A stretch of 64,000 nt of DNA, taken from positions 1 to 64,000 of the forward strand of contig JAHBYU010000005.1 of the NCBI GenBank assembly GCA_019635775.1. The letters are read 5' to 3'. Under the pieces are notes generated by a model. It made no database searches. It was not told where the DNA came from and saw only the letters and a program-made list of their open reading frames with translations. The position numbers and the translations under genes were made by a program. The DNA comes from Rhizobiaceae bacterium (GTDB taxonomy: Bacteria > Pseudomonadota > Alphaproteobacteria > Rhizobiales > Rhizobiaceae). Below, one piece after another: positions 27,306 to 55,016 of this stretch. Numbering within the stretch: position 1 is the stretch's first letter; each line of letters begins with the position of its first letter.

Positions 27306-29468
27306 GTGTCTGCAGTCGCCGCAGAATTGGTCGATGTCAGGAAAACCTTCGGTCCGACGGTGGCGTTGGATCGGGTCAGCCTGCGCGCCTACGAGGGTGA
27401 GGTGCATGCGATCATCGGCGGCAACGGGTCGGGAAAATCCACCCTGGCCAAGGTGATTTCAGGTGTGTTGGTGCCCGATCGGGGGCAGGTTTCCATTTTT
27501 GGCAAGAGCGCGACAACGCCGTCCGAGTCGAGGGCATTGGGCATTGCCAACGTCTACCAGGAAGTTCTTGTGGCCGACGAATGTTCGGTCATGGACAATC
27601 TTTTCCTCGGGGCCGATGGACTGTTCGGCGCGGCAGAGTCCCATGAGGTCCGCTACGAGCGGGCGCGCAAGGTCATGGCCGAGTTGCTCGGTTTCGATCT
27701 TGATCCCGATACGATCGTTGGCGAGTTGCCGCTTTCCATAAAGCAGTGGATCACCATAGCGCGCGGGATGCTGACGAACCCGCGTGTCCTGATACTCGAC
27801 GAGAGTTCGGCCGCGCTCGATTTCGAATCGACCGAACGGCTGTTTGCGAAGATGCGCGAGATGAAGAAGGACGGGTGTGCCGTTTTCATCGTGACGCACA
27901 GGATCGCCGAACTTGTAAGGATTGCAGACCGCGCCACAGTGCTGCGCGATGGCGTGTCGGTCGGAACCCTTGATAAGGAAGACATCACGGAAGAAAACAT
28001 CCTGCGCCTGATAGCAGGGCCGGAGCGCGAACTGGCGCATTCCTCCAGCAAGCCGGTCGAGAAGCAGGCCGGACGCCCGGTTCTTCGAGTGAACGATGCG
28101 CGGGTATGGCCGGACACGGCGCGCTTCGATTTCAACCTCTATCCTGGCGAGGTGGTCGGCGTTACGGGCCTCGATGGACAGGGGCAGGCCGATTTCGTGC
28201 GGGCGCTCGCAGGCGTGCAGGCCCTGCTGGACGGCCAGATTCACATCGTGCGGGACAAGAAGGCCGAACCCATCACCAGCCTCGCCACGGCGCGCGAGAA
28301 CGGCATCGCCTATGTCTCCGGCGATCGCAAAAAGGAGGGGATATTCCCCAACCTTTCGATCTTCGAAAACATGGCCATGCCCATCTATCCCGACTATTCG
28401 GTCGGCGGCTTCCTGAATTTCATCGATCGCCGCAAGCTTGATCCGATTTTCGTTCACGAAACCGGAAAGCTCGCCACGAAGATGGGCCATTCCGGTAACC
28501 TGATAACCTCGCTTTCCGGTGGGAATCAGCAGAAGGTGCTGATCGCTCGTGCCTTTGCGGAGCGTCCTGGCGTTCTTGTTCTCAACGATCCTGCGCGCGG
28601 AATCGACATCGGCGCGAAGCTGGATCTCTACCGCAATCTTCGTGAATTTGCCGCCCGCGGCAACGCCGTCGTCTTCCTCTCCTCGGAGATCGAGGAGTTC
28701 ATGGACCTGTGCAACCGCGTCCTTGTCTTCAGGGGTGGCGTGATCTCGTCCACCTTCGAGCCGCCATTCGATGCGCATGCAATTCTGAATGCCACCTTCG
28801 GGCGCAAGCCCGACGCGCGTCTGCCCGGCGAAGCCCGCGAAGAACAGCACGGAACCGGCGTTAGGCGGGTGGTGATGGATGAGGGGCGCCCGCAGCCTCG
28901 CGCAGTGCGGTTGCGACCCAGCATCAACCGGAGGATATTGATGAACCAATCGGGTTTTCTGCTGATGGCGCCCGACATAGCGCAGGGCGGGACGATTCCC
29001 GACCGCTTCACGGAGAAAAACAGGCGCTCGCCGGCGCTCGAATGGGAAAGTGTGCCGGAGGGAACGCAGAGCTTTGCGCTCTCGATCACCGATCCGGATC
29101 TTCCAGCCGAGTTCAATTTCCCGCGCAGCTTCGCGCACTGGCTCGTCTACAACATTCCGGCCGATGCTCGTACTCTGGCCGAAGGCGCCTCGATGACGGC
29201 GGCCATGCCTTCCGGCTCACAGGAGCTGAATTCGGATTTTGTCACATTCCGGATTCCCGGCTTTGGTCGCGGCTACGGCGGCCCTTGGCCGCCGGACCGT
29301 TCCCACCGTTACGTCTTCACGCTCTATGCGTTGAAGGCGCGCTCGATCGAGCTCGCCCCGGATGCGGATCTGCCTGCCTTTGCCAGTGCGATCCTGCCGG
29401 TTACGATTGATCAGACAAGTTTCACAGCAATTTACGGTCCGGCCAAGGCGGCGTTGCCGGCTGCCTGA
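27306..29468 (+). CDS. sugar-type ABC ATPase fused in frame to a PEBP/YbhB-YbcL domain
   Basis: The single 720-residue frame starts with GTG 27306. Residues 5-500 are an RbsA/MglA-like double ATPase. NBD1 has GGNGSGKST, an unusual signature LPLSIKQ, and LILDESSAALD. NBD2 lacks a real Walker A (GLDGQGQAD), which is normal for the family, keeps SLSGGNQQK, but has VLNDPARGID where LDEP is expected. After a 45-residue basic linker, residues 546-720 form a complete phosphatidylethanolamine-binding-protein domain (RSPALEWESVPEGTQSFAL, DPDLP, HWLVYNIP). No stop separates the two. GGAGGA lies five bases before an ATG at 28941, so the PEBP part can also be made separately. The ATPase powers the importer; the role of PEBP is unknown. 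Confidence 0.85.
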   Translation: MSAVAAELVDVRKTFGPTVALDRVSLRAYEGEVHAIIGGNGSGKSTLAKVISGVLVPDRGQVSIFGKSATTPSESRALGIANVYQEVLVADECSVMDNLFLGADGLFGAAESHEVRYERARKVMAELLGFDLDPDTIVGELPLSIKQWITIARGMLTNPRVLILDESSAALDFESTERLFAKMREMKKDGCAVFIVTHRIAELVRIADRATVLRDGVSVGTLDKEDITEENILRLIAGPERELAHSSSKPVEKQAGRPVLRVNDARVWPDTARFDFNLYPGEVVGVTGLDGQGQADFVRALAGVQALLDGQIHIVRDKKAEPITSLATARENGIAYVSGDRKKEGIFPNLSIFENMAMPIYPDYSVGGFLNFIDRRKLDPIFVHETGKLATKMGHSGNLITSLSGGNQQKVLIARAFAERPGVLVLNDPARGIDIGAKLDLYRNLREFAARGNAVVFLSSEIEEFMDLCNRVLVFRGGVISSTFEPPFDAHAILNATFGRKPDARLPGEAREEQHGTGVRRVVMDEGRPQPRAVRLRPSINRRILMNQSGFLLMAPDIAQGGTIPDRFTEKNRRSPALEWESVPEGTQSFALSITDPDLPAEFNFPRSFAHWLVYNIPADARTLAEGASMTAAMPSGSQELNSDFVTFRIPGFGRGYGGPWPPDRSHRYVFTLYALKARSIELAPDADLPAFASAILPVTIDQTSFTAIYGPAKAALPAA
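28930..28943 (+). promoter_or_regulatory. internal ribosome binding site and start for the PEBP domain
   Basis: GGAGGA at 28930-28935 followed by five bases and ATG at 28941. This is a near-ideal Shine-Dalgarno start inside the open ATPase-PEBP frame. It would yield a 175-residue free YbhB-like protein, the normal length of the family. This decides that the domain was once, and may still be, a separate gene. Confidence 0.6.
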
Positions 29469-29481
29469 AAGACAGGAGAAT

Positions 29482-29889
29482 ATGATGAGCAAATATGGCA
29501 GCAGAAAATCCATTGATCTGGAATGGATCGAGCGTTGGGCACGCCGGGTCAATGAAGACCGTGTCATGCCCAAGCTAGGTCGCTTCTTCAATGCCCGTTT
29601 CGTGCTCGGCGTCGATGACGTCGACTACCTCCTGCATATGCGTGAGGGAAAAGTGGCAAAGATTTCGGAGGGGCTTGAGCCTTCCGACTTCGGCTACGAA
29701 TTTGCGTTGCGGGCCCCTTCCTCCGCCTGGTCGAAATTCAGCCAGAAAACGCCGCCTCCCATGTTCAACGACATCTGGGCGATGGCCCATCCGCTGCACA
29801 AGCAGCTGCGGATCGAGGGTAATCAGCTGACATTCTGGCAGAACATGCGGGCCATGCACTGGATGCTGTCCCTGATGCGCGAAGTTTAA
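29482..29889 (+). CDS. SCP2-like lipid-binding domain protein
   Basis: A 135-residue protein starting at ATG 29482 (or 29485) behind AGGAG. Its plan resembles stand-alone SCP-2 sterol/lipid-carrier domains: a beta strand ARFVLGVDDVDYLLHMREGKV, here in part, followed by a GLEPSDFGYEFAL strand. An AWSKFSQKTPPPMFNDIWAM helix region and a final RIEGNQL-x-FWQNM segment complete it. Such domains hold hydrophobic ligands in a tunnel and also occur at the end of alkyl sulfatases. There is no signal peptide, so it is cytoplasmic. The position between PEBP and an alpha/beta hydrolase suggests handling of a hydrophobic substrate. The family call is by pattern only. Confidence 0.55.
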   Translation: MMSKYGSRKSIDLEWIERWARRVNEDRVMPKLGRFFNARFVLGVDDVDYLLHMREGKVAKISEGLEPSDFGYEFALRAPSSAWSKFSQKTPPPMFNDIWAMAHPLHKQLRIEGNQLTFWQNMRAMHWMLSLMREV

Positions 29890-29901: not shown

Positions 29902-30855
29902 ATGAACAAACACGATCAGATCGTGGGCCGCTACGTCTATGTCACATGCCAGGGCAAGACGTACCGGACCTACTACGAAGAAGCAGGTGAGGGCATTCCT
30001 CTCGTCTGCCTGCATACCGCAGGCGCGGACGGGCGCGAATATCGCCACCAGCTCAACGACACCGACATCACCGCCAACTTTCGCGTCATAGCGTTCGATC
30101 TGCCGCGTCACGGAAAGTCCCTGCCGCCGGCAGGCTGGCACCTGGAGGAAGAGGAATACAAGCTCACGACGAGCTTCTATTCGGAGTTTATCCTCGAATT
30201 CTGCCGCGCGCTGGAACTCGACAAGCCCGTCGTCATGGGCCAGTCGATGGGCGGCAACATCTGCCTCGACCTCGCTTTGCGCTACGAGAACGAATATTCG
30301 GCGCTCATCGCGCTGGAGGGTTGCGACCATTCTCCGGGCTGGCACATCGATCCGCTGCACCATCCCCACATCCACGGCGGCGAAGCTGTCGCCACCTCCG
30401 TATTCGGCCTGATGGCTCCGGACAGTCCGGACGAGTATCGCTGGGAGACCTGGTGGTACTACGCGCAGGGTGGCCCCGGCATCTTCAAGGGCGACCTCTA
30501 CTTCTATTCGGTCGATTCCGACTTCCGCGACAAGGTCCACAAGATCTCGGGCAAGGTGCCGGTCTATTTCCTCACCGGGGAATACGACTTCGCATGCACG
30601 CCCGAGATGACCCAGCGGACGGCCGAGAAGGTGAAGAACTCCGAATGCGTGATCTTCGGCGGCGGACATTTCCCGACGTCCGAAGACCCGGAGAAATTCA
30701 AGGAGGTCATCATGCCGATCCTCAGGAAGATCGTGCAGAACGACCCGAAGCGCCGGGGCGGCAGCGCTGGCAACTGGTCCCCGCGCCGTCAGGACGGGCC
30801 TGCGTCGGGAAGCCGGGGCGAGCGTTCGTCGGATCGCCGCGTGATCGACCTGTAG
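29902..30855 (+). CDS. alpha/beta hydrolase
   Basis: A 317-residue alpha/beta-hydrolase-fold enzyme. The oxyanion segment is CLHTAGADGREY, the nucleophile elbow is GQSMGG (Ser about 115), the acid is Asp in TGEYDFACT and the base His is in GGGHFPTSE. The cap region has several Trp/His-rich stretches (SPGWHIDPLHHPHIHGG), suggesting an aromatic or hydrophobic substrate. The last 45 residues are low-complexity Arg/Ser/Gly and probably disordered. It lies 12 bases after the SCP2-like gene in the ABC operon and would hydrolyse an ester, lactone or thioester of the imported compound. Confidence 0.88.
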   Translation: MNKHDQIVGRYVYVTCQGKTYRTYYEEAGEGIPLVCLHTAGADGREYRHQLNDTDITANFRVIAFDLPRHGKSLPPAGWHLEEEEYKLTTSFYSEFILEFCRALELDKPVVMGQSMGGNICLDLALRYENEYSALIALEGCDHSPGWHIDPLHHPHIHGGEAVATSVFGLMAPDSPDEYRWETWWYYAQGGPGIFKGDLYFYSVDSDFRDKVHKISGKVPVYFLTGEYDFACTPEMTQRTAEKVKNSECVIFGGGHFPTSEDPEKFKEVIMPILRKIVQNDPKRRGGSAGNWSPRRQDGPASGSRGERSSDRRVIDL

Positions 30856-30916: not shown

Positions 30917-32257
30917 ATGGCAAAGTCCTCGTCGTCATCAAACGCGTACCTGCTGGTGCCGATCGCACTGATCGCGGTGCTGCTTTCGACAGCCGTGATC
31001 CGCGGGCCGAGCCTGGTTACGCCAGCGGGTATCGGCAGCGCGATCATCGTCGCCGCGCCGCTGATCCTGGCGACGTATGCCCTGATGGTGCTCGCCGTTG
31101 CCGGGCGGGGTACGGTGGACCTTGCCGTCGGGCCGCTTCTTGCCTTCATAAACGTGGTGGTCGTGAAGCTCAGCACGGCCGGCTACCTCGCCAGCCCCAT
31201 CGCCACCTTCATTGTCGCGATCGGGCTTGGCATGGCCTATCAGCTGCTGTTTGCGCTGATCATCATTTTCGTGCGCGTGCAGCCGATTATCGTCGCGCTG
31301 TCGGGCTTCCTGGCGCTGACAGGCATCAATCTGGTGATCCTGCCGCGGCCCGGAGGCTCCGCGCCCGAATTCATGATGAGCTGGGGCAGCGGAACCAGCA
31401 TCTTCTCGCCGGTCCTGCTGATCATCGTGCTTGCGACGCTGGGCTGGTATCTCTTCACGGCAACGACGTTCTATTCCAACCTCAAGATGATGGGTTACGA
31501 CGAACGCGCGGCGTGGACGTCAGGAGTGAAGACGGACATCGTGCGCATTGGCGCGCACCTGATTGCCGGCATTTATGTTGCGCTCGGCGCGCTCTGCTAC
31601 ACGGCGCTGATCTCGTCCGGTGATCCCACGCAGGGTCAGAACATGACGCTGACGGCGGTAACGGCTCTTGTTCTCGGCGGCGTGGCATTGTCGGGGGGAC
31701 GCGGCGGGGCGACGGGCGCTCTTATGGGCGCCGTCAGCCTTTGGTTGATCGGATACGTCCTGGCGACCTTCAATTTTGGTGCCATCCAAGCGTTCATGAC
31801 GCAGATGGTTTACGGCGTCATTCTGGTGTTGTCGCTGCTGCTGACGCTCCTTGTTCCTGTGATTTCGCGATACGTGAGTTTCATATCGCCATGGAGCGCG
31901 TTTCTGGTGCTTGGCCTTGTCGTCATCGGGGTCATGCTGCATGTGGCCACAAGTGGTACGTATGGTGGAGCAGAGCATCATATCGTTCAGGGCGCTTTAG
32001 CCGATCGCTATTTCCTGGTTCCTCCAGCCCGTTTCGGTGGGAACGCTGGAAAATTTGTCAGCGGGACGCAATGGATGGCTCTGCTTGCCGGTCTTGCGGC
32101 AATTGCCTTCGTCGCAACCGCCAGGCTGATCAACGCCGAGGGGGGGGCGCGCAGCATGGGCCTGTTCCTCTACATCGTCGTTGCCGTGCTGATCCTCGCG
32201 CTCTTCGCAGCCGCCGTCATCCAGCCTGAGTTCAGGCTCTTGGGGAGGGGCGGATGA
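30917..32257 (+). CDS. sugar-type ABC permease (RbsC-like) with C-terminal membrane extension
   Basis: A 446-residue permease. Residues about 40-320 follow the RbsC/BPD_transp_2 plan, with VDLAVGPLLAF and the ALVLGGVALSGGRGG motif near residue 260. Typical family members are about 320-350 residues. Here about 110 extra residues at the C-terminus add roughly three more helices separated by a soluble loop (near residues 350-385). The ribosome site is weak. The stop overlaps the next permease ATG (ATGA). It would form one half of the importer channel. Confidence 0.9.
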   Translation: MAKSSSSSNAYLLVPIALIAVLLSTAVIRGPSLVTPAGIGSAIIVAAPLILATYALMVLAVAGRGTVDLAVGPLLAFINVVVVKLSTAGYLASPIATFIVAIGLGMAYQLLFALIIIFVRVQPIIVALSGFLALTGINLVILPRPGGSAPEFMMSWGSGTSIFSPVLLIIVLATLGWYLFTATTFYSNLKMMGYDERAAWTSGVKTDIVRIGAHLIAGIYVALGALCYTALISSGDPTQGQNMTLTAVTALVLGGVALSGGRGGATGALMGAVSLWLIGYVLATFNFGAIQAFMTQMVYGVILVLSLLLTLLVPVISRYVSFISPWSAFLVLGLVVIGVMLHVATSGTYGGAEHHIVQGALADRYFLVPPARFGGNAGKFVSGTQWMALLAGLAAIAFVATARLINAEGGARSMGLFLYIVVAVLILALFAAAVIQPEFRLLGRGG

Positions 32258-33666
32258 GCGAGCTCCAGACTGATCGCGCGCGCTTCGCGCTCCTGCCGAT
32301 CCCCAGATCGATCGCGCTGGTATGGCTCAACGTCGTCCTGTCGCTGATCGTCGCGGCGATCGGCCTGGGCGTCGGGTTCTCGCAGGGCAAGCTCGCCGCG
32401 CAGGAGGTGATCCTGTTCACCGTCCTGCTGGCGGCCGTTCTCTTCATTCTCCTGAACTATGTCGCGGTCGTCTTCGAGGCGCGCGCCGCGGCCGGCGACC
32501 AGGAGCAAACCGACGCGGAGAGCGGGCGCATCAGGGGCCTGTGGCAGCAAAACCGCGTCATGATCATCGCCATGGCGGGCCTGCTGATCCTCTATTTGCT
32601 GATAACGGCGGGCGTGCCGGAATTCCGGTCGATCAAGAACCTCATCGCGTTCCTGGTTCTGGAACTCATCCTGGTCTTCGCGTTCAAGGTTTCGGGGTAC
32701 TTCGCCGACGGCCGCAGCGCGTTCATCGGGCTGATCGTGCTTTTTGCCCTGATCGTGATTTCGTCTTTCTCGATAGAAGGTTTCCTTTCGGCATCCAACG
32801 TCAGGGCGATCCTGCTCTTCGCAGCTTTCCTCGGCATCGCCTCGATAGGCCAGACGATGGTGGCGCTGCTGGGCGGCCTTGACCTTTCGATCCCCTTCGT
32901 CATCGGCTCTTCCAACATCGCGCTGCTGTTCCTGATTACGGTCGGCGTGCCGTCATATGTCGCCTTCGGGTTCATCCTGGTGCTGGGCGGCATAATCGGG
33001 TTGCTGAACGGGATCATGAGCTTCCGCCTTCAGGGGCAGGCGTTGATCGTGACGCTGGGCACCGGCTTTGCGGTGGCCGGCTTCACTCAGATCATGACGT
33101 CAATCGGGTCGCAATATGCCGGCAACGTGTTCGGCACCGTGCCGCCCTGGCTGGCCAACCTCGCCGCGATGAATGGACGCTTCTTCGGTCTTCCGTTCCC
33201 GCCGACCATCATCATCTGGGTCGTTCTGGCGATCCTGCTGATCGTGGGCCTCAGGATTACGTCATGGGGGCGCAACCTCTATGCGCTTGGTGGAAACCGG
33301 CGTTCGGCCAGCCTGATAGGCATCAGCGAGCTTAAGTATTGGGTCGCGTGCTATGTCATCTCCGGCGTGTTCGCGGCGCTGACCGGCTGCCTCCTGCTTG
33401 GCTGGTCGGGCGGCGCGTTCATCGGCGTGGGCGATCCCTACCTCTTCACCACGCTGGCTGCCGTCGTCATCGGTGGTACTTCGCTGCTCGGCGGCAATGG
33501 CGGTTATGGCTTTACTGTTATTGGCGTTCTCGTGCTGCAGGTGCTGACGTCCTTTCTGCTGGGCATCGGCCTCAAATACGAGTGGCAGCAGTTCATCTTC
33601 GGCTTGCTGATCCTTCCCATGGTCGCCCTGTACGGCCGTTCGCCGCACATCCGGTCTACTGTCTAA
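32254..33666 (+). CDS. sugar-type ABC permease (RbsC-like) with N-terminal membrane extension
   Basis: A 470-residue permease. The core starts near residue 170 (ASNVRAILLFAAFLGIASIG, then GGLDLSIPFV) and ends with the IGGTSLLGGNGGYGF motif and final helices. The first ~165 residues add about five extra hydrophobic helices split by a charged loop around residues 75-95. Together with its partner's C-terminal extension, the channel pair carries perhaps eight helices more than usual. It is translationally coupled to the upstream permease. The next gene begins nine bases downstream. Confidence 0.9.
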   Translation: MSELQTDRARFALLPIPRSIALVWLNVVLSLIVAAIGLGVGFSQGKLAAQEVILFTVLLAAVLFILLNYVAVVFEARAAAGDQEQTDAESGRIRGLWQQNRVMIIAMAGLLILYLLITAGVPEFRSIKNLIAFLVLELILVFAFKVSGYFADGRSAFIGLIVLFALIVISSFSIEGFLSASNVRAILLFAAFLGIASIGQTMVALLGGLDLSIPFVIGSSNIALLFLITVGVPSYVAFGFILVLGGIIGLLNGIMSFRLQGQALIVTLGTGFAVAGFTQIMTSIGSQYAGNVFGTVPPWLANLAAMNGRFFGLPFPPTIIIWVVLAILLIVGLRITSWGRNLYALGGNRRSASLIGISELKYWVACYVISGVFAALTGCLLLGWSGGAFIGVGDPYLFTTLAAVVIGGTSLLGGNGGYGFTVIGVLVLQVLTSFLLGIGLKYEWQQFIFGLLILPMVALYGRSPHIRSTV

Positions 33667-33675
33667 GGAAATGTG

Positions 33676-34365
33676 ATGTTCACCACCCTCTATACGTCCA
33701 AGGATGTCGTATCGACCTCGCTGACCGGGCTCGCGCTGATGAGCCTCGCGGCAGCGGTGCTCTGCTTCGTCGGCCTGAGCTGGTCCAACGAACGCTGGCG
33801 GGTGCCGACCGCACTGGTCGGGGCCGCGTGCCTGGTGACCGCAATCTACTATGCCGGAGCGACGGGATACTGGCTGGCTTCCGGAGCGGCGAGCGCGGGC
33901 GTGCGCTTCTCCGCCTGGTACACGGTGCATCCGCTGCAGATCGCAGCCGTCTATTTCTTTGCGCGAACGCAAGGTCCGGTCCCGGTCGGAGTCTTCTGGC
34001 GTCTGGTGGGTGCCTCGATCCTCATGGTTTTCGGGCGATGGCTTGGCGATGCCGGTTTCTTCAATCCGACGCTGGGCGTACTGATCTCCATCGGCTTCTG
34101 GCTCTACATTCTGGGCGAGATGTATTTCGGCGCGATGCCCGAAGCGGTGCGGAAGTCTTCAAGGCCAGTGCGGTTCGGGTATTTCTGGATAAGGCTGCTC
34201 TTCACGCTGGGCTGGGCGGTCTACCCCATCCTGCATTTCGTGGATGTCGTCATCGGTGTCGGCCAGGCGCCGTCCATCATTGTGCTCTACAGCGTGTTCG
34301 ACGTCGTCAACCTCATCATCCCATCGCTGATCGTCCTGGCCGTCGCCGGCCAGGACCGGTACTGA
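33676..34365 (+). CDS. microbial-rhodopsin-fold protein lacking the retinal lysine (opsin-like)
   Basis: The 229-residue, seven-helix protein starts at ATG 33676 (TAAGGAA upstream). It aligns by eye with proteorhodopsin along its length: helix B WRV...YY, helix C RFSAWYTVHPL against RYxDWLLTVPL, helix D LMVFGRWLGDAG, helix E end ILGEMYFG against YELWAG, helix F GWAVYP against GWAIYP, helix G FDVVNLIIPSLI against ADFVNKILFGLI. Critical positions differ. The Schiff-base Lys is Leu213, the proton acceptor Asp97 of proteorhodopsin is Ala80, and the donor Glu108 is Ala91. Arg77 and the second counterion Asp209 remain. It cannot form the normal retinal Schiff base, so it is not a classical light-driven pump. 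It sits between permease and flotillin genes. A membrane sensor, scaffold or non-covalent ligand binder is possible. Confidence 0.82.
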   Translation: MFTTLYTSKDVVSTSLTGLALMSLAAAVLCFVGLSWSNERWRVPTALVGAACLVTAIYYAGATGYWLASGAASAGVRFSAWYTVHPLQIAAVYFFARTQGPVPVGVFWRLVGASILMVFGRWLGDAGFFNPTLGVLISIGFWLYILGEMYFGAMPEAVRKSSRPVRFGYFWIRLLFTLGWAVYPILHFVDVVIGVGQAPSIIVLYSVFDVVNLIIPSLIVLAVAGQDRY

Positions 34366-34397: not shown

Positions 34398-36593
34398 ATG
34401 ACAGGTGCCGATATCATCGCCATCATCATCCTGCTGACGATCCTCATCGCAGTTGGCGTCTATCTGCTTCACTGGCTGTATCGCCATTCGTCGAAGGACC
34501 AGAGCTTCGTTCGTACCGGCTCCGGCGGAGAGCGGGTCGTCATGGGTGGCGGCGCACTGGTGATCCCGATCATCCACGACATCACCGTCGTGAACATGAA
34601 CGCGATCCCGATTGAGGTCCGCCGTCAGGGCGAACAGTCGCTGATCACCAAGAACAAGATGCGCGTGGACATAACAACCGAGTTCTTCGTGCGCGTCATC
34701 GCGACGGAACAGGGCGTATCCACGGCGGCCCGGACGCTCGGCGCGCGCACACTCGATCCCGTTTCCCTCAGGGAGGTCATTCAGGGGCGCCTCGTGGATG
34801 CGATGGCTTCGGTCACCGCCACCATGACGATGAACGAGATTCACGAGAACCGCGCGGCATTCGTCAGGCAGGTAGCCGAACTCGTGAAGGACGTTCTCGC
34901 GATGAACGGGCTGGAGCTGGAAACCGTCGCGCTGACTTCGCTTAACCAGGCCGACATTTCCGTTTTCGATCCGTCCAATCACTTCGATGCCGAAGGCCTG
35001 ACGCTGATCGTCAAGGAAACCGAGGAACGCCGCAAGCTGCGCAACCAGATCGAGAACGAGACGAAGGTGCAGATCAAGCTTCGCGATTTCGAAGCCGAGC
35101 AGCGTGTCATCGAAATCGACCGCGATCTTGAGTATGTCCGGATCGAGCAGACTCGCGACATCGAGGCCAAGAAGGCCCAGCAGGCGGCGGCAATCGAAGC
35201 CGAGCGCTCGACCTCGCAGATCGCCATCACGCAATCCCGCACGAAGGCCGAGGAAGAGGCCGAGCGCATCCTGATCGCGAAGGGACGCGCGATCGACGAG
35301 GAAAGAATTCGCACCGAAAACGACGTCAAGGCACTTGAGATCGAGCGCCAGCGAGACACCGAGCTGACCGAGATCACCTCCAAGACGCGCATCGAGAACG
35401 AGCGCATCCAGGCGCGCCAGCAGGTCGAGGCCGAGCGCATCCAGCGCGAGCACGAAATACGCGAAGCGCAGATCGCGTCACGCCAGCAGATCGCGCTGCA
35501 TGAAACCAAGGCCGACGGCGAGGTCGAAAGCGCCCGTCTTGCGACCCAGCAGGACGTCGAGACGGCGAGGATACAGACGACCAAACTGGTCGAGCTCGCC
35601 AGCGTCGAGCGCGAGAAGGAGATCACCGTCTCCAGCGAGAAGGCGAAGGCCGAAACAGAACGTGCCGCGCTCACCAAGAAGCTCGCGGTCGAGAACGAGC
35701 GCCTGAAGACCGAAGAAGAAATCCGCTCGCGTGAAATCAGCAGGCAACACAAGATCAAGCTGGCCGAAACCGCAAGCTTCCGCGAGGTGGAGGACGCACG
35801 CGTCGTCGCCGAGCGCGAGATCGAGGAACTGCGTATAGCGGCGCGCAAATACATCGAGCGCTTCGAGATCGAGCAGTCGATGGAGATCGAGATCGCGGAC
35901 AAGGAACGTCTCATCGCCGTGGTCAACAAGGCCATCGACGAGGCGGTTGCCCGCACCAACGAGGCAGAGGCACAGCGCAAGCTCGCCCTGTCGCAGGAGA
36001 AGATCGAGACGTCTCGCGCCGAAGAGAAGGCCAACCGTTCCAAGACCGTCGAGATCATCGACGCGACCGCTCGCGCCGAGCGCGAGGCGATCCGCCTGGT
36101 GAAGCAGTCGGAAGCCGAGAAGACAGCCAGCGAGCTTCGGGCGGAAGCGGAAATGGCGGAGGCCAAGGCTGCCGAGTTCCGCTACGAGGTCGATTCGGGC
36201 GGCAATCGCAAGCTCAACGAAGCGGAGAATGTGCGCAGCGAAGAAAGCCGGCGCAGCGCCATACTGGAAGGTGTCGTCACGCGCCTGCCGGAGATCATCC
36301 GCGAGCAGGTCAAGCCGATGGAGAACATCGATTCCATCAAGATCCTGCAGGTCGACGGCCTGCCGGGACTCAACAGCCCGTCCGACGGTGGTTCCGCCGG
36401 CGGCGGCGGTGGCGGTGGCGGAAATATCTCCGACCAGGTGGTGAACTCCGCGATGAAGTATCGCACGCAGGTGGCCTTCGTGGACGGCCTGATGGAAGAA
36501 ATCGGCTTGCCGTTGAAGAATCTTGGCGCGGCCGGCGGGATGCAGTTCAAAAACTTCCCGCCGAAGCCCGAGGGTGGCGACAGCGACGATTGA
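34398..36593 (+). CDS. flotillin/YqiK-like SPFH-domain protein
   Basis: A 731-residue protein with one N-terminal membrane helix (about residues 5-27), then an SPFH/band-7 domain (about residues 35-210, with GGERVVMGGGALVIP and FFVRVIA). A very long charged coiled coil of Glu/Ala/Lys/Arg heptads spans about residues 210-620. The tail has a run of eight glycines near residue 675 and a final amphipathic helical region. This is the plan of flotillin-like YqiK proteins, which oligomerise into membrane microdomain scaffolds. It is longer than most flotillins (about 500). It lies 32 bases after the rhodopsin-like gene, suggesting the two proteins act in the same membrane patch. Confidence 0.9.
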   Translation: MTGADIIAIIILLTILIAVGVYLLHWLYRHSSKDQSFVRTGSGGERVVMGGGALVIPIIHDITVVNMNAIPIEVRRQGEQSLITKNKMRVDITTEFFVRVIATEQGVSTAARTLGARTLDPVSLREVIQGRLVDAMASVTATMTMNEIHENRAAFVRQVAELVKDVLAMNGLELETVALTSLNQADISVFDPSNHFDAEGLTLIVKETEERRKLRNQIENETKVQIKLRDFEAEQRVIEIDRDLEYVRIEQTRDIEAKKAQQAAAIEAERSTSQIAITQSRTKAEEEAERILIAKGRAIDEERIRTENDVKALEIERQRDTELTEITSKTRIENERIQARQQVEAERIQREHEIREAQIASRQQIALHETKADGEVESARLATQQDVETARIQTTKLVELASVEREKEITVSSEKAKAETERAALTKKLAVENERLKTEEEIRSREISRQHKIKLAETASFREVEDARVVAEREIEELRIAARKYIERFEIEQSMEIEIADKERLIAVVNKAIDEAVARTNEAEAQRKLALSQEKIETSRAEEKANRSKTVEIIDATARAEREAIRLVKQSEAEKTASELRAEAEMAEAKAAEFRYEVDSGGNRKLNEAENVRSEESRRSAILEGVVTRLPEIIREQVKPMENIDSIKILQVDGLPGLNSPSDGGSAGGGGGGGGNISDQVVNSAMKYRTQVAFVDGLMEEIGLPLKNLGAAGGMQFKNFPPKPEGGDSDD

Positions 36594-36623: not shown

Positions 36624-37082
36624 ATGAAACCCTATGACCGACTCGATCGGCATGCGCTGGTCATGGCGATCTGGACGCCTTCAGCCTTCGTTGCGGCGAT
36701 ATTGCTGCACAGGGGGCTGGCGTCAGGTGGCGGCTGGTGGATCTTCGCGGGCTTCGTCGCCATCATTGCCGCCTTCGTTGCCCATGTCATCGCCAATGCG
36801 GTGCTTGGCGCGGGCTTTACGACGGGAGAGCGAGCACTCGGGATTGCTGCCTTCGCGATAGCGGTCCTGTCGCTGCTGCTTGCGGTTCTCGTTGGTCCGG
36901 CAGGCCTCGGCGCGCGCATTTTCCTTCCGGTCGGGCTCGGGCTGATCTCCCTTGTGGCCGTGGTCATTGCATATCTGGTGATAACGTTTGGCGCGCGCGC
37001 CGCATTCGAGCGGTTCGACGTGATCCGCGACAACAATGCACGCCCGGCGTCGCGGCTGCCGCATCGCGGGGGGCGTCGATGA
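36624..37082 (+). CDS. four-helix membrane protein of unknown function
   Basis: A 152-residue protein with four predicted membrane helices (about residues 13-29, 38-62, 70-92, 98-122) and a short basic cytoplasmic tail. I recognise no family. It follows the flotillin-like gene by 30 bases and overlaps the symporter gene by four bases (ATGA). Its size and position resemble the small helper subunits that precede some SSS-type transporters (DUF485/DUF4212 class), though it is longer than those. Confidence 0.6.
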   Translation: MKPYDRLDRHALVMAIWTPSAFVAAILLHRGLASGGGWWIFAGFVAIIAAFVAHVIANAVLGAGFTTGERALGIAAFAIAVLSLLLAVLVGPAGLGARIFLPVGLGLISLVAVVIAYLVITFGARAAFERFDVIRDNNARPASRLPHRGGRR

Positions 37083-38932: not shown

Positions 38933-38976
38933 CGGAGTGCGCGGGCCAGCATGAAGAGCATATGCGGGAGTTTTCC

Positions 38977-40290
38977 ATGTCGTTGATCGACCATGTCGTC
39001 GCCCTTGCCTCCCTGCCGGCGAACCGACTGCCCGGGCGGGCAATGAGCATGGCGCGCTTTTCGCTGCTCGACTGGATGGCCTGCGGGATGGCCGGTGCAG
39101 GCGAACCGGTCGCGGAGAAACTGCGACAGCTCGTGGCGCTTGAGGGCGGACAGGGCGCGTCGTCGGTGATCGGCAACGGTGCCGCGCCGGCCAGGATGGC
39201 AGCCCTCGCCAACGGAGCAGCCAGCCACGCTCTCGATTATGACGACACCCATTTCGCCCATATCGGACACCTGTCCGTTGGTATCTATCCTGCCGCGCTC
39301 GCCGTCGCGGAGGAGATCGACGCACCTGCCGGGGCGGTGGTCGAGGCTTTTCTTGTTGGGGCCGAAGCGGCGATCAGGATCGGCATGGTCCTCGGTCGCG
39401 CGCACTACAATCACGGCTTTCACCAGACAGCAACGGCCGGCGCATTCGGCGCCACAGTCGCCGCCGCCCGGCTATACGGGTTGGACGAGGCGCAGATCCA
39501 CCACGCGATCGGCCTGTGCTCGACGAGGGCGTCGGGTCTCAAGTCGCAGTTCGGCACGATGGGCAAGCCCTACAATGCGGGCGTGGCCGCTTCGAACGGC
39601 GTCGAATGCGCGAAACTGGCCGCTCTTGGCATGACGTCGGCCGACGACGGCCTGTCTGGATTGCAGGGTTTCATCCAGACGCATTCGCCGGCCCCGGAGC
39701 CAGAAGACGTCAGCGGCCCCTGGGATCGCTTTCTGTTCGAGGACAACAAGTACAAGCTTCATGCCTGCTGCCACGGCACGCACGCGATGATCGAGGCGCT
39801 GCTGGATGCGGGCGAGCTGGAAGGCCGTGCCCTGGACGACATCGCTGCGCTTTCTCTCCAGACCAATCCGCGTTGGCTCCGCGTCTGCGACATCAAGAAG
39901 CCGCGCACCGGTCTCGAGGTGAAGTTCAGCTACAACTGGCTGGCGGGCATGACCATCAGGGGCGACCGGACAGGAGATGAACGGGTCTACAAGGACACGC
40001 TGGCCGACGATCAGGCGCTGTCGGCCTTTGCGGACAAGGTCACCGTGCTCGGAGACGACGAACTGACCGACATGCAGGTGAGGGGGACGGTGAGCCTGCA
40101 GGACGGTACCGTCATCCAGCTTTACCACGATCTCGATGCCCCACTGGCGGAAGAGTTGCTTGCCGGAAAGCTGCGGGCAAAAGCCGAGGCGCTGATCGGC
40201 GAGCGGGGAAGCGCACTGTGGGAGATGTTCTTCGACCTGAACGGCAGGACCGCCCGCGATGTCGGAAGGGCGCTGCGCAAGCCCGCTTGA
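38977..40290 (+). CDS. MmgE/PrpD family protein
   Basis: I start at ATG 38977 with GGGAG six bases upstream; ATG 38962 is in frame but lacks a site. The 437-residue product has the MmgE/PrpD landmarks: ALANGAASHALDYDDTH, GHLSVGIYPAALA, FHQTATAGAFGA, a QFGTMGKPYNAG segment and a KLHACCHGTH segment. The family includes 2-methylcitrate dehydratase, cis-aconitate decarboxylase and others of unknown role. It is the last gene of the long plus-strand cluster and meets the hydratase gene head-to-head 12 bases on. A dehydratase, decarboxylase or isomerase on a C5-C7 acid is likely. Confidence 0.88.
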   Translation: MSLIDHVVALASLPANRLPGRAMSMARFSLLDWMACGMAGAGEPVAEKLRQLVALEGGQGASSVIGNGAAPARMAALANGAASHALDYDDTHFAHIGHLSVGIYPAALAVAEEIDAPAGAVVEAFLVGAEAAIRIGMVLGRAHYNHGFHQTATAGAFGATVAAARLYGLDEAQIHHAIGLCSTRASGLKSQFGTMGKPYNAGVAASNGVECAKLAALGMTSADDGLSGLQGFIQTHSPAPEPEDVSGPWDRFLFEDNKYKLHACCHGTHAMIEALLDAGELEGRALDDIAALSLQTNPRWLRVCDIKKPRTGLEVKFSYNWLAGMTIRGDRTGDERVYKDTLADDQALSAFADKVTVLGDDELTDMQVRGTVSLQDGTVIQLYHDLDAPLAEELLAGKLRAKAEALIGERGSALWEMFFDLNGRTARDVGRALRKPA

Positions 40291-46187: not shown

Positions 46188-48308
46188 ATGGCCAGCACCG
46201 ACACATTCGCATCGCTGCGATCCCGCTATCTCCCCGATCATCTGATCGGGGAGATTCTTTCCAAGCGCTGGATCGACAACGCGATCCCGTTTTCGGCACT
46301 TGTCCTCACGGTCGTCGTGCTGGGCTCGATCATCCCGGACTTCTTCTCCGTGTCGAGCCTTTCGGACCTCGCCAGGCAGTTTGCCGAGTTCGGGCTTGTC
46401 GTGCTGGCCCTGACAATCGTCATGATTTCCGGAGGCATAGACCTGTCGGTCGCCTCCGTCTTTTCCCTCGCCGTCCTGTTCTCACTGATCGGCGTGAACG
46501 TCTACGAGCTACCGATACCCGTGGTCCTGGGCGGCATACTCGTCATGGGCATGGGGTGCGGGGCTATCAACGGTGTGCTCGTCGGCTATCTGCGCCTGCG
46601 GGCGTTCCTGACGACGCTCGTAAGCCTGATCATTTTCCGCTCGATCTACGAGATCGTCTTCCTTCGCATGTCGACGTCCATCATGTCCGGCTTCTCGATG
46701 TCGGAGATGTGGCTGTTCATCGGCGAGGGCACGATCTTCGGAGTACCGACATCGCTGGTCATCACGGGCGTGATCGCGCTTGCCTGGCACCTCGTCCTGT
46801 CGCGCATGCGTCCGGGCTGGAGGCTGACCGCAGTTGGCGGCGCAAGGCGCTCGGCGTTCAATGCCGGCATCAACGTCCGATTCATGGTCTTCCTGACCTA
46901 CGTCGCGTCGAGCACGATGTGCGCACTGGCCGGCTTCCTTTTCGCAGCACGCCTTGGCAGCACCGGCTCCGATACCGGCGTCGGGCTCGAAGTGCAGGCG
47001 CTGACCGCCGCAGTCCTTGGCGGAACCGCTATCGGTGGCGGACGCGGCTCCGTCGCGAAAGCGATCATTGGCGCATTGCTGGTCCTCCTGCTCACCAACG
47101 GGCTCATAAATCTCGGCATCAGCGGCCCTATCACCTCGACGATACTGGGTGCGGTCTTGCTGTTGGCCGTCTTTGTCGACATGCGCTGGCAGAAGCACCG
47201 CCATCGCATCCTCGCGAAAGTCTATGTCTCGCCGGCCTATCTCGACTTGCCGCCTGCTCCGGTGGTGGATGCGCCCGGTTCGCCTTATGCCCTGAACGAC
47301 AAGCTCCGCTCCGTCGAGATCATCGGGCTTGGAGAGATCGAAGGACCGGAGGACGTCATTCTCGACCGTGACGACAACCTGTATTGCGGCACGCGCCACG
47401 GCGACATCGTTCGTTTCTTCGGACCGGACCACAAGCGTTCGGAGATATTTGCCCACATAGGCGGCCATCCGCTCGGAATGCAGTTCGATCGCGCCGGAAA
47501 CCTCCTTGTATGCATCGGCGGCATGGGCCTGTTCCAGGTTGCGCCCGACAAGACCGTGACCAAGCTGACCGACGAGACGAACCGAAGCTGGGGCTCCGTG
47601 GTGGACGATTCGCGCCTGCGCCTTGCGGATGACGTGGATGTCGCGCCTGACGGACGCATCTATTTCAGCGAGGCCACGATCCGCTACGAGCAGGAGGACT
47701 GGGCGACGGATGCGCTGGAAAGCCGGCCGAGCGGGCGCATGATCTGCTACGATCCGAGCACCGGAAAGACGCATACCGAAATCCCGAAGCTCGTTTTCGC
47801 CAACGGCGTCGCCATGTGCCGTGACGGACAGTCGTTCATGTTCGCGGAAAGCTGGACCTGCTCGATCAGCCGCTACTATTTCGACGGTCCGAAGAAGGGC
47901 AAGATCGAGCGCGTGATCTCCGATCTGCCCGGCTATCCCGACAACATCAACCGGGCCTCCGACGGCACGTTCTGGCTGGCGCTTCTGGGCATGCGCGGAC
48001 CGGCACTCGATCTTGCGCTCAAGATGCCGGGCTTCCGCAAGCGCATGGCGCGGCGCGTCGCTCCCGACCAGTGGCTTTATCCCAATATCAACACGGGTTG
48101 CGTGGTAAAGTTCAACGAGAAGGGCGAGATACTCGACAGCCTATGGGATCTCGGTGGCCTAAACCACCCGATGATCACCTCCATGCGCGAGCACAAGGGC
48201 TGGCTCTATCTGGGAGGAGTCTCCAACAACCGCATTGGACGCTATCGCCTTCCCGACGCCGACCCGAACTGGTGCGCACAGGATGAATATTGGGGGCCGC
48301 GCACATGA
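46188..48308 (+). CDS. ABC permease fused to a C-terminal beta-propeller (SMP-30/strictosidine-synthase-like)
   Basis: The 706-residue product combines two proteins. Residues 1-345 are an RbsC-type permease (IVMISGGIDLSVASV, GGARRSAFNAG and VLGGTAIGGGRGS). After a short Pro-rich linker, residues about 370-700 form a six-bladed propeller of the SMP-30/gluconolactonase/strictosidine-synthase class (GLGEIEGPEDVILDRDDNLYC, DDVDVAPDGRIYFSEA, GYPDNINRASDGTFWLAL). Metal-site Glu, Asn and Asp are in the expected loops. The topology would place the propeller in the cytoplasm if the permease has its usual even helix count. It may hydrolyse a lactone as the substrate enters. The ribosome site is poor and a strong hairpin lies at codons 14-23. 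Confidence 0.88.
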   Translation: MASTDTFASLRSRYLPDHLIGEILSKRWIDNAIPFSALVLTVVVLGSIIPDFFSVSSLSDLARQFAEFGLVVLALTIVMISGGIDLSVASVFSLAVLFSLIGVNVYELPIPVVLGGILVMGMGCGAINGVLVGYLRLRAFLTTLVSLIIFRSIYEIVFLRMSTSIMSGFSMSEMWLFIGEGTIFGVPTSLVITGVIALAWHLVLSRMRPGWRLTAVGGARRSAFNAGINVRFMVFLTYVASSTMCALAGFLFAARLGSTGSDTGVGLEVQALTAAVLGGTAIGGGRGSVAKAIIGALLVLLLTNGLINLGISGPITSTILGAVLLLAVFVDMRWQKHRHRILAKVYVSPAYLDLPPAPVVDAPGSPYALNDKLRSVEIIGLGEIEGPEDVILDRDDNLYCGTRHGDIVRFFGPDHKRSEIFAHIGGHPLGMQFDRAGNLLVCIGGMGLFQVAPDKTVTKLTDETNRSWGSVVDDSRLRLADDVDVAPDGRIYFSEATIRYEQEDWATDALESRPSGRMICYDPSTGKTHTEIPKLVFANGVAMCRDGQSFMFAESWTCSISRYYFDGPKKGKIERVISDLPGYPDNINRASDGTFWLALLGMRGPALDLALKMPGFRKRMARRVAPDQWLYPNINTGCVVKFNEKGEILDSLWDLGGLNHPMITSMREHKGWLYLGGVSNNRIGRYRLPDADPNWCAQDEYWGPRT
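46228..46260 (+). terminator. terminator-like hairpin inside the 5' end of the permease-propeller gene
   Basis: Two perfect 13-base arms, ATCTCCCCGATCA (46228-46240) and TGATCGGGGAGAT (46243-46255), enclose a two-base loop and are followed by TCTTT. The structure begins 40 bases into the coding sequence and 67 bases after the binding-protein stop. It could act as an intrinsic attenuator lowering expression of downstream genes relative to the receptor, or as an RNA element hindering initiation. Confidence 0.55.
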
Positions 48309-51564: not shown

Positions 51565-52299
51565 TCACCAACGGTTGGTCGGCAGGACGAACATCTGCGC
51601 GATCTGCACCTGCGGCGGCTGTTCCAGCGCGAACATGGCGCAGCGCGCGATGTCTTCGGGGTCGAGCGCCATGCCGAAGCGCTCGAAATAGGCTCGCGCT
51701 GCCTCTTCGTCTCCGCGCAGGCGCGTCGTCACGATGTTTGTCGACGTCAGGCCAGGCATGATTTCGATGACGCGCAGCGGCGTCTCCGCCAGTTCACCCC
51801 GTATGATGTCGCTCAGCATGTGAACGCCGGCCTTGCTGGCCGAGTAGGGCGCCTGGTCCGGCACCATGCGGATCGCGCTGATCGAGCTCATGTTGAGGAT
51901 GTCGCCACGGCCACGCTCGATCATGCCGGGCAGGATGGCGCGGGTCACCCGCATCAGGCCGATGAGGTTGGTTTCGATGATGGCCGCCCAGTCGTCTGCC
52001 GAGCCCAGATCGAAGCGGGTGCGTCCGCCTATGTCGTGACCGGCATTGTTGACGAGAATGTCCACCGCCCGGAGGCTCTCCGGCAGCGCATCGAGGCAGC
52101 CTGCTACAGCCGCACCGTCATTGATGTCGAGAACGAATGGAAATGCGCCTTCACCGAGTTCGGCGGCAAGTTCTTCAAGTGGGGCTTTCTGCCGATCCGC
52201 CAGCACGAGACGGCAGCCCGCCTTGTGCAGGCTACGGCTGATCGCACGGCCGATGCCGCTTGCCGCACCCGTCACGAAGGCGATGCGTCCGGGCTCCAT
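51565..52299 (-). CDS. short-chain dehydrogenase/reductase (SDR)
   Basis: The ATG at 52299 overlaps the lactonase stop (TGATG) and gives 244 residues. The NAD(P) loop is TGAASGIGRA, NNAG follows near residue 87, and the catalytic triad is Ser in NMSSISA, Tyr and Lys in YSASK. It is a classical SDR of normal length. As the last gene of the minus-strand operon it probably oxidises or reduces an alcohol/ketone intermediate. The substrate is unknown. Confidence 0.92.
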   Translation of the reverse strand: MEPGRIAFVTGAASGIGRAISRSLHKAGCRLVLADRQKAPLEELAAELGEGAFPFVLDINDGAAVAGCLDALPESLRAVDILVNNAGHDIGGRTRFDLGSADDWAAIIETNLIGLMRVTRAILPGMIERGRGDILNMSSISAIRMVPDQAPYSASKAGVHMLSDIIRGELAETPLRVIEIMPGLTSTNIVTTRLRGDEEAARAYFERFGMALDPEDIARCAMFALEQPPQVQIAQMFVLPTNRW

Positions 52300-53099
52300 C
52301 ACGCCGGCCTCGGCGCGATGTCGAGCCGGACGACCGACCCGCGCAACCTGTCGTCGGGAGACGGGTAGAGTTCGAGCACGAGCGGATCGTGGCCGGGTAT
52401 CACATGGTCCCGCGACGTGGCGAGCCCGAGCACCTTGTCGTAACCTTCCAGAACATCGGCGACGCTGTCGACCGTGGGGAATATCCTGCGCTGGTCCAGA
52501 TGGGCGTAGAAATGCGTGGTGTCGGAGGCCAGCACGACATGCCCCCGCGCGGTCTTGACCCGCACGACCTGCAGGCCGCGCGCATGACCGCCTATGTGAT
52601 GGAGCGTGATGCCGGGCGCGAACTCGCTGGCTCCCTCATGAAACCGAACCTTGCCCTCATAGACGCGACGGACCATCGTCGTGACATTGTCGACGTCGTA
52701 GGGGTGGTTGAGGATCGGATGGCACATGCAGCGGCCGGTCGCGTAGGCCATCTCCGTGTCCTGCACATGGAAGCATGCGGACGGAAACAGACCGTCATTG
52801 CCGGCATGGTCGTAGTGCATGTGCGTGATGATCACATCGCTGACGGCGCTGCATTCGATGCCGAGTGAGCGCAGGCCCGTCTCGACCGGCTGCACGAGAT
52901 CGCGGTTGCGCTTCTTCGCGGAGGCCGCGTCGAAGCCGGTGTCCACGACGATCGTGCGTTCGGCGTTGCGGATGACCCAGTTGAAATAGGCGAGCGGCAT
53001 GGAAACGTCATGGCTGTCGCCGCCGATGAAATTCTCCGGCGAACGCCGCGCCGAATGGGCATAGCGTATGGCGAAGATCTCGTAAGTGTCGTCGCTCAT
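52299..53099 (-). CDS. metallo-beta-lactamase-fold lactonase (AttM/AiiB-like)
   Basis: A 266-residue zinc hydrolase. The signature HMHYDHAG supplies four zinc ligands; a further His (in HIGGHARG), the bridging Asp (ASDTTHFY) and the last His (IPGHDPLV) complete the di-zinc site. The lay-out matches N-acyl-homoserine lactonases and related lactone hydrolases of rhizobia/agrobacteria. Here it is in a catabolic operon with aldehyde and beta-hydroxyacid dehydrogenases, so a metabolic lactone is at least as likely as quorum quenching. Confidence 0.88.
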   Translation of the reverse strand: MSDDTYEIFAIRYAHSARRSPENFIGGDSHDVSMPLAYFNWVIRNAERTIVVDTGFDAASAKKRNRDLVQPVETGLRSLGIECSAVSDVIITHMHYDHAGNDGLFPSACFHVQDTEMAYATGRCMCHPILNHPYDVDNVTTMVRRVYEGKVRFHEGASEFAPGITLHHIGGHARGLQVVRVKTARGHVVLASDTTHFYAHLDQRRIFPTVDSVADVLEGYDKVLGLATSRDHVIPGHDPLVLELYPSPDDRLRGSVVRLDIAPRPA

Positions 53100-53108
53100 C
53101 TAAGCCCC

Positions 53109-54629: not shown

Positions 54630-55016
54630 TCAGCCGTTCTGCGCGTCGACTTCAGCAAATGCCTCGCGGGCTATGCGGAAAGAGTCAACACCTGCAGGCA
54701 CGCCGGCGTAGATCGCGACCTGCATGAAGATCTCGCGGATCTCGTCGCGGCTTACGCCGTTCTTCAAGGCGCCCTTCACATGCATCTTCAGCTCATGCGG
54801 GCGGTTAAGGCAACTGATCATGGCAAGATTGAGCATCGAGCGCGTCTTGCGGGGCAGGTCCTCGCGGCCCCAGACCGCACCCCAGCAATATTCGGTGACG
54901 AGTTCCTGCATGGGCCGGTTGAAATCGTCGGCAGCGGCGAAGGACTTCTCGACGAATTCCTTGCCGAGCACTTCCTTGCGGATTGCCAGGCCGCGTTCGA
55001 ATACGTCGTTTGTCAT
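54630..55016 (-). CDS. carboxymuconolactone decarboxylase (CMD) family protein
   Basis: The ATG at 55016 overlaps the MmgE/PrpD stop and gives 128 residues, the usual size of PcaC-type proteins. The sequence shows the all-helical CMD pattern: LAIRKEVLG, EYCWGAVWGREDLPRKTRSM, then LNRPHELKMHVKGALKNGVS and VAIYAGVPAG. It lacks the CxxC of the peroxidase (AhpD) branch, and has the His of the decarboxylase-type HELKMHV segment. It likely decarboxylates or isomerises a lactone-ring acid within this operon. Confidence 0.88.
   Translation of the reverse strand: MTNDVFERGLAIRKEVLGKEFVEKSFAAADDFNRPMQELVTEYCWGAVWGREDLPRKTRSMLNLAMISCLNRPHELKMHVKGALKNGVSRDEIREIFMQVAIYAGVPAGVDSFRIAREAFAEVDAQNG

Follow-up and report, generated by a model that had tools for sequence, protein, structure and literature searches.

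The closest described systems to the locus reported here are the FArhodopsins (FARs), a rhodopsin family described by Haro-Moreno et al. in 2023 (PMC10308929). According to the main text of that paper, FArhodopsins are widespread in SAR11-type and other abundant aquatic bacteria and their function is unknown. Its marine members keep the retinal lysine and lie in a cluster with genes for an inner-membrane translocator, a sodium symporter, alpha/beta hydrolases and iron-dependent alcohol dehydrogenases, and the marine single-cell genomes containing a FArhodopsin are reported there always to hold a proteorhodopsin. Freshwater FArhodopsins mostly lack the lysine, carrying Q, T, L or R instead, and adjoin a flotillin gene. 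The idea published with these data links FArhodopsins to a proteorhodopsin and to dim light. Two further groups of rhodopsin relatives without the lysine are the Rh-noK proteins of betaproteobacteria, cited in PMC10308929 as xanthorhodopsin relatives whose genes stand in tandem with that of a functional pump, and the opsin-related proteins of haloarchaea and other organisms; for the lysine-less haloarchaeal opsins, chemosensing is proposed in the abstract of PMC4915679.

Here we analysed a stretch of 64,000 nucleotides from a Rhizobiaceae bacterium (hereafter the window), which encodes a rhodopsin-fold protein (Table 1). Its ORF starts with ATG, and an in-frame GTG lies one codon upstream. The initial annotation, made from the sequence alone, had assigned the protein to the rhodopsin family, and a profile search upholds this: residues 18-222 match Pfam Bac_rhodopsin (PF01036) at 37.1 bits against a gathering cut-off of 24.6. 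As this was the only Pfam match, membership of another seven-helix family is ruled out; a sub-cut-off match to NCBIfam NF045607 (19.2 of 35 bits) was judged to be a chance match. The best relatives in the PDB are 9r21 (E 4.6e-33) and 9r23 (7.4e-31), both named flotillin-associated rhodopsin, followed by 9r22 ('microbial rhodopsin', E 1.7e-18) and by proteorhodopsins from 7.8e-17. Moreover, the protein stands apart from the proton-pumping proteorhodopsins in our tree and has a flotillin gene on the same strand. Judged by sequence, it belongs to the lysine-less (Leu) branch of the FArhodopsins, with a predicted type-1 rhodopsin fold and a relationship to proteorhodopsin. The initial annotation had implied a more isolated lysine-less opsin. 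Its lysine-less nature stands, its isolation does not, as the FArhodopsin family in the account of PMC10308929 has Leu-type freshwater members beside flotillin.

In a profile alignment with 31 distinct proteorhodopsins, sites 77, 80, 91, 209 and 213 read R, A, A, D and L in the window protein vs R, D, E, D and K in 31/31 proteorhodopsins; the latter rows were labelled by E91 and K213, so both are fixed by construction, and R77, D80 and D209 are the independent counts. The protein matches the Bac_rhodopsin profile, and the Schiff-base lysine, the acceptor Asp and the donor Glu are all absent. All five assignments made beforehand were right: Leu213, Ala80 and Ala91 are replacements, and Arg77 and Asp209 are kept. 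K9 and K160 are the sole lysines, which leaves none in helix G to take over, and a shifted alignment or another lysine at the Schiff-base site is ruled out. With neither a Schiff-base lysine nor an acceptor or donor carboxylate found, the protein is not an ordinary retinal pump, as had been claimed, and is predicted to be no longer able to bind retinal covalently. W81, W180 and P184 are kept, the same columns being W, W and P in proteorhodopsins. Site 121 is Gly in the 31 proteorhodopsins and Arg in the window protein; we take this position to be that of the glycine beside the retinal ring, in the pocket, of rhodopsin structures.

Over the aligned range, 9r21 and 9r23 differ only at the sites of H85 and R121 of the window protein: 9r21 has His and Glu there, 9r23 Val and Gly as in proteorhodopsins. 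We infer that the depositors tested those two sites as pocket-blocking residues; a literature search on flotillin-associated rhodopsin and FArhodopsin found no paper on these changes.

Relatives were collected from several sources. Alignment A1 holds the window protein and 18 relatives from a scan of the genome collection, 54-98% identical to it. Further scans took in the window's order (397 genomes), its class (385) and the order to which Paracoccus haematequi belongs (292), and five of six matches in plasmid records were taken up. L032/L115 (undetermined residues) and L034/L117 (one in-frame stop, contig end) were dropped before residue counts and tree, 25 rows (most of L108-L125 among them) were dropped as identical duplicates, and L047, a 23-bit partial match, was placed in no group. 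The final residue set comprises 21 Leu-form (FAR-L), 12 Arg-form (FAR-R) and 6 Lys-form (FAR-K) FARs together with the 31 proteorhodopsins; L127 and L130, both of the Arg form, are near copies of each other. The distribution of FARs is patchy, with a match in 2/292 genomes of the P. haematequi order, one being P. haematequi itself. The Leu form occurs in records of Ruegeria sediminis CAU 1488 and Roseovarius azorensis DSM 100674, and the Arg form in those of Martelella sp. AD-3 and Hoeflea sp. IMCC20628. Shinella sp. PSBB067 has a Leu-form FAR operon on a 4.6-Mb record (NZ_CP069303.1) that is filed as a plasmid and has just two annotated features in all.

A tree rooted on 16 of the 31 proteorhodopsins (PR), with published FAR sequences outside its sampling, has the topology PR | (FAR-K, (FAR-R, FAR-L)). 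Supports are 99/96 for FAR vs PR, 100/100 for the lysine-less clade, 100/100 for FAR-L, 99/97 for FAR-R and 88/74 for FAR-K. On this tree the lysine-less FArhodopsins form one clade. A single change from Lys to non-Lys suffices, with a printed warning that two long branches meet, and separate losses in the Leu and Arg forms are not needed.

The lysine and Asp80 are missing together in 33/33 lysine-less FARs, in which site 80 is A, G or T. All 33 also have Arg121 and an Asp or Glu at 125. Asp80 is kept in 6/6 Lys-form FARs and 31/31 proteorhodopsins, and Arg121 occurs in none of these. In the Arg form the lysine site is Arg in 12/12 and site 77 is His (11) or Pro (1), vs Arg in FAR-L, FAR-K and proteorhodopsins. 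Site 209 carries Asp except in two FAR-R and one FAR-K, where it carries Glu. Taking sites 77, 80, 209 and 213 only, opposite charges balance in proteorhodopsins, FAR-K and FAR-L, and in FAR-R if histidine is neutral. With these charges balanced and Lys and Asp80 vanishing jointly, loss of the lysine seems to have been coupled to loss of its counterion.

The window gene encodes a maintained protein. Its dN/dS against 17 of the 18 relatives (L018 was omitted) ranges from 0.014 (L002) to 0.363 (L015), many of these values being unreliable with dS at about 1 or above; for the two closest relatives it is 0.014 (L002) and 0.090 (L003). L213, R77 and D209 are present in 19/19 rows of A1, R121 and the stretch FWLYILGEMYFG being likewise invariant; Leu at the Schiff-base site, whose conservation among homologues had been put forward as a check, thus recurs in all of these rows. 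The codon of L213 varies synonymously (CTC, CTA, CTG and CTT in the 18 of 19 rows read). Low dN/dS and an invariant L213 with varying codons point to a lysine-less protein that is kept under purifying selection.

The gene sits within an operon for an ABC importer. In the window it runs from the substrate-binding protein through ATPase (with PEBP domain), orf136, alpha/beta hydrolase, permease 1, permease 2, FAR, flotillin and orf152 to the symporter-like protein. Pfam and NCBIfam scans of the neighbours agree with the earlier placement in a sugar-type ABC operon, the sugar ABC ATPase models matching the ATPase part of that ORF below their own cut-offs. Wherever Leu-form loci are long enough to show the operon start, this is the substrate-binding protein gene. 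A PEBP match (PF01161) follows the ATPase in most Leu-form loci, though not in L017 nor in Arg- or Lys-form loci. Hydropathy shows further hydrophobic segments in a C-terminal stretch after the core of permease 1 and an N-terminal hydrophobic segment in the flotillin, which starts 32 bases past the FAR stop codon. The best NCBIfam model for the alpha/beta hydrolase is 3-oxoadipate enol-lactonase, far under its cut-off. The symporter-like protein has no Pfam match of its own, a PDB search gave nothing useful for it, and it is 29-32% identical to its homologues; that of L126 matches PF00474 at 26.6 bits (cut-off 22.8) and that of L127 falls below the cut-off at 15.9.

Table 1. Features of the FArhodopsin operon in the window, in order of position.
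Feature	Position or residues	Strand	Evidence
Substrate-binding protein, 397 aa	26006..27199	+	PF13407 121.1 bits
Sugar-type ABC ATPase (two ATPase domains) with C-terminal PEBP domain, one 720-aa ORF	27306..29468	+	PF00005, PF01161
orf136, conserved small protein without hydrophobic segments	29479..29889	+	no family match over cut-off
Alpha/beta hydrolase	29902..30855	+	PF00561 71.1 bits; in all three FAR operon types
ABC permease 1, 446 aa, BPD_transp_2 core 44-307	30917..32257	+	PF02653 49.3 bits
ABC permease 2, 470 aa, BPD_transp_2 core 185-454	32254..33666	+	PF02653 98.2 bits
FArhodopsin, Leu form (FAR-L), 229 aa	33676..34365	+	PF01036 37.1 bits; 9r21 E 4.6e-33
FAR-L residues in the window protein	R77, A80, A91, R121, D125, D209, L213		residue table
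Flotillin, 731 aa, Band_7 and Flot domains	34398..36593	+	PF15975 113.6 bits, PF01145 53.6 bits
orf152, small, four hydrophobic segments, upstream of symporter	36624..37082	+	hydropathy, synteny
Sodium:solute symporter-like protein, 610 aa	37100..38932	+	named via L126 homologue
MmgE/PrpD family protein	38950..40290	+	PF03972 184.2 bits

Searches of Pfam, NCBIfam and the PDB gave no match of note for orf136, and the idea, taken from the marine cluster, that it might be a sterol-carrier-like protein found no support in Pfam or PDB profiles. It is present in 34/397 genomes of the order, 20 of them without FAR, and is ruled out as a marker of the FAR operon. Catabolic genes beside the window FAR encode a CoA transferase, an acyl-CoA dehydrogenase, MmgE/PrpD and an aldehyde dehydrogenase. 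No transducer, kinase or output domain was found among the operon genes scanned. Downstream lie a metallo-beta-lactamase-fold gene beside an aldehyde dehydrogenase (52299-54587, -) and a second MmgE/PrpD gene (55016-56455, -). A second sugar-type ABC operon nearby (46188-48308, +) has a PF02653 permease and a strictosidine-synthase/SMP-30 gluconolactonase-like domain in one ORF; it is possible that import is again paired with a lactonase there.

Permease 2, FAR and flotillin follow one another on one strand in 39/39 loci with both flanks visible (20 Leu form including the window, 13 Arg and 6 Lys), a count that leaves out the cut loci L016 and L117 and includes L130 as a near copy of L127. The flotillin/ABC neighbourhood, whose conservation among homologues had been raised as a check, is constant to this extent. 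Permease 2 carries an extension of about 180 residues, with about five hydrophobic segments by hydropathy, ahead of its BPD_transp_2 core. We searched the 397 genomes of the window's order with a 169-position profile of this extension and found it full-length in 14, all of them FAR genomes, about 1.4 kb upstream of FAR. In the 15th FAR genome of the order (G009) the contig is cut at the permease site. Weak partial matches without FAR occur in G384 (44 positions, E 1.6e-12) and G181 (35 positions, E 7e-7). Among the loci of the residue comparison, flotillin lies beside every FAR and beside no proteorhodopsin. The flotillin domain PF15975 was found in 14/14 FAR genomes and in 5/22 relatives without FAR, and the window flotillin is the sole PF15975 match in its genome. 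Three other genes, those for the alpha/beta hydrolase, orf136 and the symporter, accompany these loci with almost the constancy of FAR, and the linkage of FAR to the importer could therefore be metabolic or regulatory; gene neighbourhood does not prove a complex.

We then consider companion rhodopsins and sources of retinal. The window protein is the sole PF01036 match at E <= 10 in its own genome (4.95 Mb, 99.92% complete), so that the proteorhodopsin elsewhere in the genome reported as a companion of marine FArhodopsins was not found here. We do not take such a companion as defining FArhodopsins, because the authors of PMC10308929, by its main text, could not check it in freshwater members. 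No second rhodopsin was found among the candidates scored in 29 lysine-less genomes (20 Leu, 9 Arg), the candidates being in many genomes a part of those from a first look; the 20 Leu-form genomes are 18 from the collection scan plus G000 and G092. The family model is not fully sensitive, as PF01036 missed FAR itself in G786 (P. haematequi) and G792, and a normal proteorhodopsin should score well above those two FARs. A proteorhodopsin accompanies FAR in 2/7 Lys-form genomes (G730 and G653, both 1.4 Mb) and was not found in the other five, two of which are 61% and 84% complete. Blh (PF15461) was found in 0/23 FAR-only genomes (18 lysine-less, 5 Lys form) and in 8/9 genomes with proteorhodopsin. 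The initial annotation had noted no blh gene in the window, and this now extends to the whole genome, in which neither a Blh match nor an RPE65-family enzyme (PF03055) was found. One phytoene/squalene-synthase-family gene is present. The RPE65 family occurs in 1/19 lysine-less genomes (G092), in 3/5 genomes with FAR-K only and in 1/9 with proteorhodopsin. Three Lys-form FARs with flotillin (L048-L050, in G750, G580 and G673) come from 4.0-4.5-Mb genomes in which the RPE65 family is present and proteorhodopsin and Blh were not found.

The Arg-form operons have a different setting. A tblastn search with genes of Martelella sp. AD-3, from locus L127, which is itself one of the 13 Arg-form loci searched, found a divergent IclR-type regulator and an AttM-type lactonase in 12/13 (L115 is cut), an iron alcohol dehydrogenase in 13/13 and an SSADH-like protein in 9/13. 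In L127 the lactonase exceeds the cut-off of the AttM model NF045700 (415.1 bits, cut-off 390) and the SSADH that of TIGR01780 (696, cut-off 646.35), and the iron alcohol dehydrogenase lies under the 4-hydroxybutyrate dehydrogenase cut-off (251.5 of 500 bits). All 6 Lys-form loci with long flanks have AttM-like matches, whose best segments are 34-72% identical; in L121 and L122 the match is truncated where the stretch ends. This arrangement resembles the lactone catabolism of blcABC, as judged from the gene families encoded. The annotated Arg-form records are plasmids of Martelella, Hoeflea and Pararhizobium and one filed under Dysgonomonadaceae. Four of these loci (L126, L127, L129 and L130) are annotated 'bacteriorhodopsin' despite the absent lysine, and three of them also bear an ion-transport GO term. 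The operon of L130, on a 246,192-base plasmid filed under Dysgonomonadaceae bacterium zrk40, is 97-100% identical to that of Martelella sp. AD-3, and in the scan of plasmid records its scores equal those of the 246,197-base plasmid NZ_CP066788.1 of Martelella lutilitoris; the L130 record is possibly mislabelled or mixed.

What, then, might the window FAR do? We see an even chance that it is a light-independent accessory membrane subunit tying the ABC importer to its flotillin. The FAR would pack against the additional helices at the N-terminus of permease 2 and, in a scaffolding or assembly role, would dock or organise the importer within the assembly formed by the flotillin that the next gene encodes. 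We favour such a subunit because FAR keeps a fixed position and co-occurs with the permease extension, because its light chemistry was lost under purifying selection and because no other rhodopsin was found. The earlier proposal of a membrane sensor, scaffold or subunit agrees with gene order and with this co-occurrence, although its status is still that of a suggested role. The main rival, which we regard as possible but rather unlikely, is a dark chemosensor in the old retinal pocket: the emptied pocket would bind a small molecule (an importer substrate, a lactone or a hydroxy-acid) and FAR would gate the importer or the flotillin. Its residues look refixed rather than decayed, with R121 and an acidic residue 125 throughout the lysine-less forms, the Arg-form operons carry genes for an AttM-type lactonase and an iron alcohol dehydrogenase, joined in 9/13 loci by one for an SSADH-like protein, and the same role has been put forward for the haloarchaeal opsins (abstract of PMC4915679). 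However, the operon genes scanned supplied no partner of a sensory kind, the ligand is only hypothetical, and R121, at the site of the proteorhodopsin Gly, may simply fill the pocket. Less probable still is that FAR serves flotillin or a membrane state, such as solvent or lactone stress, and not the importer itself. Flotillin does adjoin every FAR locus compared, and the window's genome has a single PF15975 protein, but flotillins occur without FAR in 5/22 relatives, and the tie of FAR to the extended permease is just as close.

Readings that retain a link to light fare worse. It is very improbable that FAR remains a light sensor by way of non-covalently bound retinal or some other carotenoid; the conserved W81, W180 and P184, the phytoene/squalene-synthase-family gene and the RPE65-family gene of one lysine-less genome in 19 would allow it, but Blh and RPE65-family genes were not found in the window's genome, Arg replaces Gly at 121 and no output domain is apparent. 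The reading favoured in the main text of Haro-Moreno et al. (2023), in which FAR assists a proteorhodopsin pump of the same cell as a heterocomplex in a flotillin raft, fits the marine single-cell genomes, always with proteorhodopsin in that account, and two of our seven Lys-form genomes. It does not fit here, because a second rhodopsin was found in none of the 29 lysine-less genomes, the window's included, and Blh in none of the 23 FAR-only genomes; five of seven Lys-form genomes likewise gave no pump. For the window's genome this reading is already contradicted, barring a pump gene that the assembly or the search overlooked, and we give it next to no credence. Nor do we believe that FAR is a proteorhodopsin remnant that decays as a passenger of the operon: just Arg77 and Asp209 are left of the five pump sites, as a relic might show, yet the selection test, with its dN/dS range and its invariant residues, already contradicts decay.

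Returning to the light-independent subunit, we would extend it, tentatively and at rather less than an even chance, to FArhodopsins overall. All would be dedicated subunits of extended-permease ABC importers gathered by flotillin, the fold having been co-opted before its light chemistry was lost; the marine 'twilight-zone' forms would act likewise, and the imported substrates would probably be lactones or short hydroxy-acids. A light-independent transport role becomes directly testable here, because a lysine-less FAR is under selection, no pump was found and the placement between permease and flotillin holds in 39/39 loci. If right, a microbial rhodopsin fold would clearly have been reused here as a structural component of a transporter, and a bacterial flotillin would gain a defined client.

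The FArhodopsin family, its link to flotillin and its lysine-less forms are already known. Four further points were not met in the literature searched, which comprised open-access papers and the main text of PMC10308929: that FARs of large genomes occur independently of proteorhodopsin and Blh, that lysine and acceptor were lost jointly, that an extended ABC permease goes with FAR, and that the Arg form has a blc-type setting. The Arg-form operons are like blcABC (attKLM) of Agrobacterium, described in PMC3907764 as a route from gamma-butyrolactone to succinate, in having an AttM-family lactonase and an iron alcohol dehydrogenase, and in L127 also an SSADH; for this comparison, IclR-family regulators are annotated upstream in the Arg-form operons. 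Unlike blcABC, their iron alcohol dehydrogenase misses the 4-hydroxybutyrate dehydrogenase cut-off, and the window's Leu-form operon has no lactonase set directly beside FAR. Compared by description, the window protein is like Rh-noK and the haloarchaeal opsin-related proteins in being a rhodopsin relative without the retinal lysine. Unlike Rh-noK, it has no tandem pump rhodopsin, and no second rhodopsin was found in its genome; in the text of PMC4915679 on the opsin-related proteins, the word flotillin does not occur. With proteorhodopsin (4kly, 4jq6 and 2l6x) it shares homology over nearly its whole length (E ~1e-16) and the kept Arg77 and Asp209, but it differs in the missing lysine, acceptor and donor, the flotillin neighbour and R121 for Gly. 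Unlike the marine FArhodopsins, it belongs to a 4.95-Mb genome in which proteorhodopsin and Blh were not found. Its place in a complete ABC importer operon with a permease extension, shown here, was not met in the main-text account of PMC10308929. It is nevertheless the FArhodopsin of Haro-Moreno et al. that it resembles most closely, in its closest solved sequences, in the flotillin gene directly downstream and in a Leu that is among the reported replacements of the lysine.
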